Assembly (NCBI RefSeq): GCF_024138715.1
Contig: NZ_CP092074.1
Location: 1,860,001-1,924,000, forward strand
Source: Emticicia sp. 21SJ11W-3
GTDB lineage: Bacteria; Bacteroidota; Bacteroidia; Cytophagales; Spirosomataceae
Length of the DNA: 64,000 nt
Direction of reading: 5' to 3'
The translations under genes were made by a program, and so were the position numbers. The notes under the pieces were generated by a model. The model was not told the origin of the DNA. It ran no database searches and worked only from the letters and a program-made list of their open reading frames with translations. Shown here one piece after another: positions 25,437 to 31,383 of this stretch; position 1 is the stretch's first letter; each line of letters begins with the position of its first letter.

Positions 25437-26891
25437 ATGAAAACTTCTTCATTTAGAATTCTTGCGCTTGCGGTAATGATGTTACCAGCAGTTGGGTTTT
25501 CTCAACAAAACCCGGCACCTAATCAGCAGTCTTCTCCATGTAATTCTTTGCCTTATAAAGTTTTTCAGGGCAACGCCGACAGAACCCCTGTAGTGCTAAA
25601 TAGATTAGGGACTAGTCCTCAATTTGGGGAAATACCTAAACACACTGCAAAATCAGCTTTCGACCATCTGAAGAGAGTGTACAAAAAGAACCAGAAAGGC
25701 ATTAAAAAAGAAATGGACGACATGCTGGCTGCTTTGGGTTACACTGGTATTAACGACCCTGCGTTTACGGTAGGTAGTTTAACGCCTGAAATCCTACCTA
25801 AAGGTTCAACCGGTTGGATGGGCGCCTATGCCAAAGGCCACAAATACAGCTGGTCTATTTTGGGCAATAACTTTGAAACCTTTAAACTGAAAGCAAAAAC
25901 CGGCGATTGTTTCATTTATATTATGAAAAAATGCGGTAACGCTTTTTATATACCTGTTTACATACCAGCAGGGCCGGTTGTAGAACCCACCAGGGTTGTT
26001 GACCAGCAGGTAAGTATCAGCGCGAAAGGTGAAATTGCCAGCGGAGACGTAATGAATGTCAGCAAAACAATGGAAATTGTAGCAGTTAATGGTAATAAAG
26101 GTGTTTCGCTTGGCACTTATCCGGTTAAATACCGTGCTACTTATGATTACAGCGTAAAAGGTGAAATGGCTTATTCTAAAACCATTCCGGTATGTGTTAC
26201 TGGTAATGAAACAGTTGCCCCTGTAAATCTGATGTTGCCTTTGGCACTAGATTATAAAATTACCAAATCTGATGTTACCGTTGGTGAAGGTGATAAAATC
26301 TACCTGAATGTTGATGAGAAACAATTCAAAAATCTGAGCAAAGCATATAAAACTATGGATGTTACTCCTGCAACATCAGCTACGCCTCAGTCTATTGAAA
26401 AGAAAGTTTTATCAGCAACCACAGCAAATGATGCTACTATCGGAACCACAGGCGCGTCTCAATGTGCTGACCAACGCGTTAATTTTATAGGCAAATCTGA
26501 AATTCAGGATGGAAGTATCAAAACCGCAAATCCAAATGTAACAATTATTGGTGTTTATAAGAAAACAGGTAAGCTTGCAGTAGGTGAAACTCCAGAAAAA
26601 TACCTTTGCCTGGGTTCATTCCCGGTTCCGGTTAAGTCTGGCTATGAGGTCGTAACAACGGGCTCAAGCAGCGTTTCTAAAGCGTTCAGAGTGGCTAATG
26701 CCAGCGCAACTACATTGCCTGATGTGGATGTTAATATCCCGGTGTCATTAACCTATAGCTTTACCAAACAGGATGTAACTGTTGGAGACTACAACAAAAT
26801 TTATGTAACCTTGGATGAAGGGCAATACAAGAAACTATTGAAAAAATATAGCCGTTGTTGCAACGATGGCTCTTGTATAATCAAAAAATAA
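25437..26891 (+). CDS. Secreted protein of unknown function with an internal duplication
   Basis: I do not recognise this 484-residue protein. A signal peptide (through VGFSQ, about residue 23) precedes an N-terminal domain (about 35-180) that includes AFDHLKRVYKKNQKGIKKEMDD and a cysteine pair in TGDCFIYIMKKCGNAFY. Two related units follow: about 188-303 (DQQVSISAKGEI to KSDVTVGEGDKIYLNVDEKQ, FKNLSKAY) and about 343-471 (DQRVNFIGKSEI to KQDVTVGDYNKIYVTLDEGQ, YKKLLKKY). Both end in the same beta-strand and helix pattern, so they are probably a tandem duplication. The C-terminus carries a cysteine-rich YSRCCNDGSCIIKK tail. It stands alone between an approximately 290-bp intergenic region and a terminator. 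It may be a surface or extracellular structural protein, but nothing visible gives its function. Confidence 0.85.
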   Translation: MKTSSFRILALAVMMLPAVGFSQQNPAPNQQSSPCNSLPYKVFQGNADRTPVVLNRLGTSPQFGEIPKHTAKSAFDHLKRVYKKNQKGIKKEMDDMLAALGYTGINDPAFTVGSLTPEILPKGSTGWMGAYAKGHKYSWSILGNNFETFKLKAKTGDCFIYIMKKCGNAFYIPVYIPAGPVVEPTRVVDQQVSISAKGEIASGDVMNVSKTMEIVAVNGNKGVSLGTYPVKYRATYDYSVKGEMAYSKTIPVCVTGNETVAPVNLMLPLALDYKITKSDVTVGEGDKIYLNVDEKQFKNLSKAYKTMDVTPATSATPQSIEKKVLSATTANDATIGTTGASQCADQRVNFIGKSEIQDGSIKTANPNVTIIGVYKKTGKLAVGETPEKYLCLGSFPVPVKSGYEVVTTGSSSVSKAFRVANASATTLPDVDVNIPVSLTYSFTKQDVTVGDYNKIYVTLDEGQYKKLLKKYSRCCNDGSCIIKK

Positions 26892-26938
26892 TTTTGTTGA
26901 ATTAAGATTCCTAAATTATTGATGGTATATACTATTAA

Positions 26939-26973
26939 AACTTCCGGTAACATCTCCGTTGCCGGAAGTTTTT
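26939..26973 (+). terminator. Terminator after the duplicated secreted protein gene
   Basis: AACTTCCGGTAAC (26939-26951) pairs with GTTGCCGGAAGTT (26958-26970) with one G-T pair and a short loop, followed by T residues. Confidence 0.85.
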
Positions 26974-29924: not shown

Positions 29925-31187
29925 TCAGGTTTTAAGTTTCTTTTTCTTGGCAGCCGGAAACAATAAATTATTTAGAATAAGCCTGTAACCTGCCGATGTT
30001 GGATGCAGGTTAAGATCAGTAGGCTCTTCACCTACATAATGTTGGTAATCTTCGGGGTCATGCCCTCCGTAAAATGTCCAGAATCCTTTACCTGCCGTAC
30101 CATGAATATAACGCGCTTCCCCCAGCGAACGGTTTTCGGCCATAATAATTACATCTGGTTTTATGTATTGTTTCTTAAAGGCCGTGGTTTGGCCCATAAA
30201 ACCTTTAATAAGATTTACATGATTCTGCGTTAGCATGGTGGGGATGGGGTCCCATTTGGCAGAGAACTGAAACAATGAAAAATAATCGTTGGTTTCGCTT
30301 ACTCCTCTTTCGTCCTGTTGGCTGTCAATCGTCGAAAACTCCAGTTCATAGGGGTTCAGTACCAGTCTGAAGTTCTGAAAAGCAAAACAATTATCAAAAT
30401 TCAGTTTTTTATCTGCATTGGCGTCTGCGCCATCGCCGTCATAAGGCGTTTCTACAATGTCTATTCCATCTGCGGCCAGAGCAATATCAAAGGTATCGGT
30501 TGCATTACACATGGCAAACATATAACCACCGCCATTTACAAAGTCCCTAATTTTTTTAGAAACGGCCAGTTTCAGCTCTGAGGTTTTCTGAAAATTAAAC
30601 TTACGGGCTATTGCTTCGGCCTCATGTTTTTGTTCCTGATACCAGGCCTGCCCGCGCATACGTAAAAATTTACCAAACTGCCCTGTAAAATCTTCATGGT
30701 GCAAATGTAGCCAGTCGTATTCCGGTAATTTGTTTTCCAGTACCTCTTCATCAAAAACCTTATCGTATGGAATCTCAGCATAAGTAAGCACCAGCGTAAC
30801 GGCGTCGTCCCAGGGCTGGGTGGTTTTAGGAGAATAAACAGCTATTTTGGGCGCTTTATTTAGTTTTACTGCATCCATATTTGCTTCGGGCGATGCAATT
30901 TGTGCTAATATTGATTGTGCCTCTGCGTCTGAAATAACCTCATAACTTACGCCACGTATCACACATTCATTTATAAAATTCTGAGAAGCACTAAACATAA
31001 AACTACCGCCCCTGAAATTCAACAGCCATTCAACCTCGGTTTCGTGTTCTTTAAGCAGCCAGAACGTAATACCATAAGCTTTTAAATGGTTCCTCTGGCT
31101 TTCGTCCATTGGTATCAATATTTTATTGGCCAATACTTCTGAACACAAAGAAAACGCCAGTACAACTAAAATAAGTAATTTCTTCAT
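29925..31187 (-). CDS. Exported amidotransferase-like protein of unknown function
   Basis: I take ATG 31187 (MKKLLILVVLAFSLCSEVLA) as start because it creates a signal peptide; the longer upstream frame has none. The 420-residue product has a segment DFVNGGGYMFAMCNATDTFD that resembles the nucleophile region of class-I-glutamine-amidotransferase-like folds with a candidate Cys, and a further HLHHEDFTGQFGKFLRM stretch. Bacteroidota homologues are often labelled asparagine synthetase B, but the true AsnB N-terminal Cys-glutaminase domain is not present, so I do not use that name. The catalytic role is unproven. Confidence 0.65.
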   Translation of the reverse strand: MKKLLILVVLAFSLCSEVLANKILIPMDESQRNHLKAYGITFWLLKEHETEVEWLLNFRGGSFMFSASQNFINECVIRGVSYEVISDAEAQSILAQIASPEANMDAVKLNKAPKIAVYSPKTTQPWDDAVTLVLTYAEIPYDKVFDEEVLENKLPEYDWLHLHHEDFTGQFGKFLRMRGQAWYQEQKHEAEAIARKFNFQKTSELKLAVSKKIRDFVNGGGYMFAMCNATDTFDIALAADGIDIVETPYDGDGADANADKKLNFDNCFAFQNFRLVLNPYELEFSTIDSQQDERGVSETNDYFSLFQFSAKWDPIPTMLTQNHVNLIKGFMGQTTAFKKQYIKPDVIIMAENRSLGEARYIHGTAGKGFWTFYGGHDPEDYQHYVGEEPTDLNLHPTSAGYRLILNNLLFPAAKKKKLKT

Positions 31188-31383
31188 AGGTAAAAACCAA
31201 ATTAATTTCTCATATTTCCTTGCCCAATATACAGTTAACGTAAAAAGCCAAAGTATATTGAAAGGGGCTTCACTCACCATTATAGCAATTTAAAAAAAAA
31301 TATTCATTGTTTGTCCAATTCTCTCAATCTGATTCGTCAACAGGTTGAAATAAATTTTACAACCATTTAAAACTTAAAAAATC

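Follow-up and report, generated by a model that had tools for sequence, protein, structure and literature searches.

The gene at 25437–26891 of the window (the whole 64,000-nucleotide stretch of Emticicia sp. 21SJ11W-3 DNA that was analyzed) encodes a 484-residue protein that fits no named family in the libraries searched and belongs to a well-bounded family with an undescribed domain. A signal-peptide-like start is followed by an N-terminal domain, here called the CGN domain, which recurs elsewhere as a separate module, by two homologous units and by a cysteine tail. We favor, with a probability of roughly 0.4, the interpretation that the protein is exported, stabilized by disulfide bonding and serves the cell envelope as a scaffold or adaptor, most likely in the periplasm, where it would face partners in the outer membrane and dock through surfaces on the CGN domain and on both capped units. 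The features of the locus are listed below.

25437–26891, forward strand: complete gene for a 484-residue protein (ATG at 25437, stop codon ending at 26891)
25437–25502, forward strand: signal-peptide-like N-terminus, residues 1–22, without a lipobox cysteine (read by eye)
25539–25541, forward strand: C35, predicted disulfide partner of C158 (co-occurrence in 27 domains of a second taxonomic family)
25572–25961, forward strand: N-terminal CGN domain, residues 46–175 (recurrence in the second family; alignment A9)
25908–25910, forward strand: C158, predicted disulfide partner of C35 (same co-occurrence in 27 domains)
25932–25940, forward strand: invariant C166-G167-N168 motif (39 of 39 rows of A9)
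25992–26354, forward strand: repeat unit 1, residues 186–306 (profile A3), homologous to unit 2, with two long strands in the model
26271–26324, forward strand: first copy of the DVTVG...KIY..VDEKQ motif, residues 279–296 (sequence; A8 profile match at 286–305)
26460–26888, forward strand: repeat unit 2 and C-terminal tail, residues 342–484 (profile A4; separate clade, 100/100; model)
26772–26825, forward strand: second copy of the motif, residues 446–463 (sequence; A8 profile match at 452–470)
26856–26876, forward strand: C-terminal cysteine tail CCNDGSC, residues 474–480 (C474, C475 and C480 invariant in 19 of 19 members)
26937–26972, forward strand: intrinsic terminator with a 15-pair stem, a 6-base loop and a T-rich tail

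The reading frame previously proposed for this interval is open over its full length and is conserved in 28 genomes, the window's own included; the protein aligns from end to end with 18 relatives at 34–73% identity. Its N-terminus reads by eye as a signal peptide (MKTSSFRILALAVMMLPAVGFSQ, with a glutamine on the residue 23 side of the cut), and similar starts are found in the other family members examined. By the same reading, the signal peptide is not directly followed by a lipobox cysteine, the first cysteine being residue 35, after ...SSP. The TGDC and KKCGN sequences that the preliminary description had assigned to an N-terminal domain occupy residues 155–158 and 164–168. Codon adaptation of the gene is 0.755, the sixth highest among 53 open reading frames of the window, with medians of 0.692 for the window and 0.758 for the ribosomal-protein region, which served as the reference (27 reading frames, a few other genes among them). 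This codon usage suggests good or high expression.

In a search of 222 genomes from the window's taxonomic family, 28, counting the window's own, proved to encode a full-length relative, always as one copy per genome. These 28 genomes represent 8 of the 36 genera in that family and include all 11 same-genus genomes among those listed. A scan of a named genome collection returned 23 loci, with the titles Emticicia, Lacihabitans, Jiulongibacter, a Leadbetterella MAG, and MAGs of Spirosomataceae, Cytophagaceae, Cytophagales or Bacteroidetes. One extra match, in genome G044, covers the N-terminal domain only and lies inside a different protein.

The preliminary description could not place the protein in any family, and the library searches agree with it. 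The best Pfam match is below the cut-off at E 0.031, NCBIfam has no match, the best PDB sequence is at E 0.44, and PHROGs gives no significant assignment (a relative had a single row, at E 0.033), so that no clear known family emerged from any of the four. Pfam searches with the relatives returned DUF1508 plus sub-threshold rows only, and none of the publications listed by a literature search concerned this family. Several specific domains were also sought in the window protein. For a type IX C-terminal sorting domain there was no NCBIfam match, and Pfam offered four unrelated sub-threshold rows; the outer membrane beta-barrel domain model had no Pfam match, and neither did Ig-like or PKD-type domains, folds of a kind that can diverge past sequence detection.

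These searches bear on the proposal that the protein is a structural component of the cell surface or the extracellular space, such as an adhesin or a matrix subunit, with β-units that provide length and a CGN domain that does the binding. The signal-peptide-like start, the conserved cysteines, the high codon adaptation and the repeated β-rich units would all suit such a protein. We nevertheless regard it as doubtful, as no known sorting or anchoring domain is recognized in Pfam or NCBIfam and, more weakly, other proteins (described below) combine the CGN domain with a hydrophobic segment or a barrel-like part, an arrangement that suits the envelope better.

The preliminary description had noted a sequence pattern repeated in tandem. 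When profiles of unit 1 (A3, residues 186–306) and unit 2 (A4, residues 342–484), each built from 19 members, were compared, they matched over 120 columns with a pairwise E of 3.1e-36 and a probability of 99.9, which establishes the repeat and shows that what is duplicated is an entire unit of ∼120–140 residues, with the motif at its end. The two units of the window protein are 34% identical to each other. When the 222 genomes were searched with a combined profile of the two units (A6), each of the 28 gave two matches; the only others, four at E 0.078–0.096, were taken as chance. In a tree of 38 units, first and second units fall into two clades with a support of 100/100 (100% of 200 bootstrap trees). 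Because the units separate in this way, the duplication occurred once, before the sampled genera diverged and, judging from these sequences, is older than them. That the reading frame or its repeat is a chance feature is refuted by the full-length open frame, its conservation in 28 genomes and the E-value of the duplication. The preliminary description of an unrecognized exported protein with a tandem duplication is thus supported, its export being read by eye from the signal-peptide-like start.

The full-length model (19 sequences; mean pLDDT 78.3, pTM 0.48) shows a mixed N-terminal domain followed by two units, each composed of long strands that follow one another as in a hairpin, additional strands and a short helix; we use "hairpin" for an arrangement inferred from strand order in the models. 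Strand order and the terminal helix agree between the two units of this model, and the repeated motif covers a strand and the start of the short helix near the unit end. A model of a single unit (pLDDT 74.2, with some blocks near 58; pTM 0.53) has the same layout of strands and helix. Neither model gave a significant match in fold searches. For the single unit, the best Foldseek E is 0.41 and the best VIA-align Z is 2.6, the VIA-align matches extending over 47–76 residues. For the full model, the best Foldseek E is 0.0033, with TM-scores of ∼0.1 or below among the matches listed, and the best VIA-align Z is 2.4.

The weak rows obtained with the single unit include many long hairpin stems of oligomeric pores (six of seven VIA-align entries) and also the flagellar LP ring. 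These rows raise the question of whether the protein forms an oligomeric ring or pore, the long hairpins of its units aligning into a shared β-barrel. The hairpin order of the long strands in both models would allow it. In the long strands, hydrophobic residues mostly take turns with polar ones, and the polar side carries most of the charges, as a barrel would need, a pattern equally compatible with a sandwich. The structural matches are all weak, however, and in unit 2 the alternation shifts its phase within the first long strand, which suits a bulged soluble sheet. We consider a ring or pore improbable.

The N-terminal domain proved to be a separate recurring module, on the evidence of profile searches, and was overlooked as such in the preliminary description. 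A first profile of residues 46–175 matched 2 of 395 genomes of the phylum, the window's own included, the other match being to one protein from outside the family. Extended by this outside protein and the G044 protein, the profile (A5) matched 10 of 390 genomes of the order, all inside the window's own family. It also had matches at 27 places in the family of the outside protein, a second family of Bacteroidia, where 21 of 344 genomes contain the domain; the genome on which this search was centered was itself a match. In a wider alignment of 39 sequences (A9), the invariant positions are one leucine, six glycines and the CGN triplet, and the window protein matches the A9 profile at its N-terminus with this triplet intact. 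Among 316 genomes of the phylum, the A9 profile found only the window's own copy, which indicates that the domain is patchy in its distribution. The genome searches of this analysis add up to 1988 look-ups, with many genomes visited repeatedly. It has no significant match in Pfam, NCBIfam or PDB, and a library scan of all 39 domains gave single-member rows only, at E 0.02 or worse. Rows for PDB proteins of the EF-hand type (sorcin and grancalcin, E 0.59–1.6) were taken as chance.

The CGN domain occurs in several architectures. Of the 27 second-family proteins, 25 are 235–366 residues long and consist of the domain and a C-terminal half of one of two main types. The other two (L111 and L123) are ∼500 residues long, and in them the CGN domain continues into a C-terminus that resembles an outer-membrane barrel; the only barrel match of this pair is that of L123 to the Pfam OMP_b-brl model, below the cut-off. 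Within the window's own family, the G044 protein (L028, contig 9) has its CGN domain at the C-terminus, in one chain with DUF1508 repeats and a hydrophobic segment.

The surroundings of the second-family genes, for which 20 neighborhoods were compared, come from related genomes. In three of them, the CGN gene has an immediate same-strand neighbor that encodes an exported-looking protein of 177–195 residues (L155:8526-9074, L156:8586-9116 and L157:7319-7903); these proteins resemble the C-terminal half only and cluster with the CGN proteins, while having no CGN domain. The stand-alone unit of L157 gave a sub-threshold Pfam row for DUF6689 (E 0.024). A divergent gene with TPR repeats (two members scanned) lies near the CGN gene in nine of the 20 (L140–L147 and L154), at most two genes away in eight, L154 having a further small reading frame between. 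A gene for a protein of 233–252 residues stands between the TPR-repeat and CGN genes in six of the 20; one of three scanned matched a barrel model, at E 0.023, below the cut-off.

How the C-terminal halves of the second-family proteins relate to the repeat unit was addressed with profiles of their two types, A7 and A8. L111 and L123 were excluded from both as a third type, and L119 was excluded from A8 because its first CG match lies upstream. A6 aligned with A7 at E 0.0011 (62 columns, probability 21) and with A8 at E 0.0004 (17 columns, probability 35); A7 and A8 aligned with each other at E 0.0099 (probability 4). Unit 1 alone gave E 0.05 against A7, for which the CGN domain, as a control, gave 0.14. 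Among 285 reading frames from the 20 second-family neighborhoods, 23 of them with a CGN domain, A6 matched 11 distinct proteins at E ≤1, of which nine, including the top seven, are CGN-domain proteins (best E 0.0055); the reversed sequences gave three matches, the best at E 0.17. CGN proteins also rank first with the unit 2 profile (best E 0.023, reversed 0.24), whereas with the unit 1 profile the best match is a protein that has no CGN domain (E 0.014), followed by a CGN protein at 0.082 (reversed 0.27). In the opposite direction, A8 matches the motif in both units of the window protein (residues 286–305 and 452–470) with a whole-protein E of 5.7e-4 among 21 sequences (reversed 1.0). A7 matches some members (best E 6.4e-4, reversed 0.4), and the window protein, at E 2.4, is not among them. 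By these profile comparisons, many distant relatives have, close to the end of their C-terminal half, a sequence resembling the motif of the preliminary description, and those halves are possibly related to the whole repeat unit. In L114, L117 and L118, cysteine-rich tails with six cysteines in ∼25 residues follow the motif.

Cysteines are a prominent feature of the family. The "Cys-rich ends" of the preliminary description are a fair characterization, since seven cysteine columns are invariant in 19 members and three of these (C474, C475 and C480) fall in the C-terminal tail. With cysteines counted after removal of the signal peptide (L132, L134 and L135 have one inside it), 15 of the 27 second-family domains contain both a cysteine in the mature N-terminus and one located eight residues before the CGN cysteine, 12 contain neither and none is mixed. 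Both equivalents, C35 and C158 in the window protein, occur in all 20 window-family members examined, L018 included. Because the two are present or absent together, a C35–C158 disulfide is predicted, the 27 domains being related and not 27 independent events.

A second pair of cysteines, at the two ends of the predicted hairpin, is common without being strictly coupled: 40 of 49 units contain both, four contain neither and five contain only one. Both are kept in each unit by 15 of 19 members. In the window protein (25992–26888), unit 1 is without the first cysteine of the pair and unit 2 without the second, and the two leftover cysteines could bond between units.

All 39 domains keep the CGN cysteine, including those that have lost the C35/C158 pair. 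Such conservation could instead point to a binding protein or an enzyme-like domain, in which this cysteine is a functional thiol or a metal ligand and the β-units are accessory; cysteine-rich stretches resembling CxCxxC in some relatives lean the same way. We view this as unlikely, given that no enzyme or metal-binding family in Pfam, NCBIfam or PDB matches and that the A9 invariants besides CGN, being glycines and one leucine, do not constitute a typical catalytic set.

As the preliminary description stated, the gene stands alone and has its own terminator. It is separated by 292 nt from an upstream aldose epimerase gene and by 232 nt from a downstream, convergent gene of the DinB family, and the 15-pair stem with its T-rich tail lies at 26937–26972. 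A conserved operon partner was sought in 24 neighborhoods of the window protein's family and rejected, as these fall into two main gene contexts. One set of neighbors is common to the window and L031–L040, and another to L042–L053 (Lacihabitans, Jiulongibacter, a Leadbetterella MAG and others); L041 covers too little sequence to be assigned to either. The aldose epimerase gene is the sole adjacent same-strand gene common to several neighborhoods (four of 24). L042, titled Emticicia sp. CRIBPO, has a neighborhood of the Lacihabitans type, unlike the other Emticicia loci, and its title may not correspond to its true genus. A 451-residue protein (29928–31280, reverse strand, in the window; cluster 3) is encoded near the gene in all 11 Emticicia-type neighborhoods, and a Pfam search of it found no match at E 0.001. 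The Bacteroidetes -7 box has the sequence TAnnTTTG. It is present within 160 bases upstream of the gene in five of 20 members and absent from this region in the window. No match was found among 72,556 plasmid records, and one viral scan with one relative gave none either.

The location, partners and role that we propose derive from the signal-peptide-like start (read by eye), the joined domains and the codon usage. According to the scaffold or adaptor model, the signal peptide would export a protein made up of the CGN domain, two predicted β-hairpin units from one ancient duplication, and the cysteine tail. Its site of action would be periplasmic, on the inner side of the outer membrane. The CGN domain would form one docking site, and the two units, each ending in a strand-helix cap with the sequence KIY-x-x-(V/L)-D-E, would bind outer-membrane partners, as suggested by the two relatives that join the CGN domain and a barrel-like part in one chain. 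The N-terminus would be fastened to the CGN domain by one cysteine pair, and each hairpin locked at its base by another.

A more speculative extension, to which we give little credence, is that Bacteroidia possess two undescribed extracytoplasmic modules, the CGN domain and the KIY-capped hairpin unit, which are shuffled among soluble, stand-alone, barrel-joined and membrane-anchored forms and together constitute an envelope assembly system whose long hairpins lie side by side in a ring or sheet at the outer membrane. Whatever the role, the CGN domain and the duplicated unit, neither of which is named in the searched libraries, are now delimited, and the predicted disulfide can be checked. If the outer-membrane role is true, a conserved and probably well-expressed envelope component of this lineage has been left unannotated; if it is false, the family is still a clean one for fold discovery and gene naming. 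On present evidence, it opens no long-standing question and implies no surprising mechanism.

Among known systems, pores of the lysenin and aerolysin type and the flagellar LP ring have long strands in hairpin order, as does the predicted unit. They differ from it in that the matches are weak (Foldseek E 0.41, VIA-align Z ≤2.6) and the unit profile has no match among PDB sequences. The outer-membrane barrel model PF13505 (OMP_b-brl) has a weak match at the C-terminus of L123 (E 0.011), below the cut-off, and none in the window protein. DUF1508 (PF07411) shares a chain with the CGN domain in the G044 protein and is absent from the window protein. The closest counterparts are the unannotated CGN proteins of the second family (L111–L137), which have in common with the window protein the signal-peptide-like start and the CGN domain and, in many cases, a C-terminal half whose ending resembles the KIY..VDE..YK motif. 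They differ in having one unit-like C-terminal half, compared to two units in the window protein, and in the cysteine-rich stretches, charged tails or barrel-like end that some of them contain.
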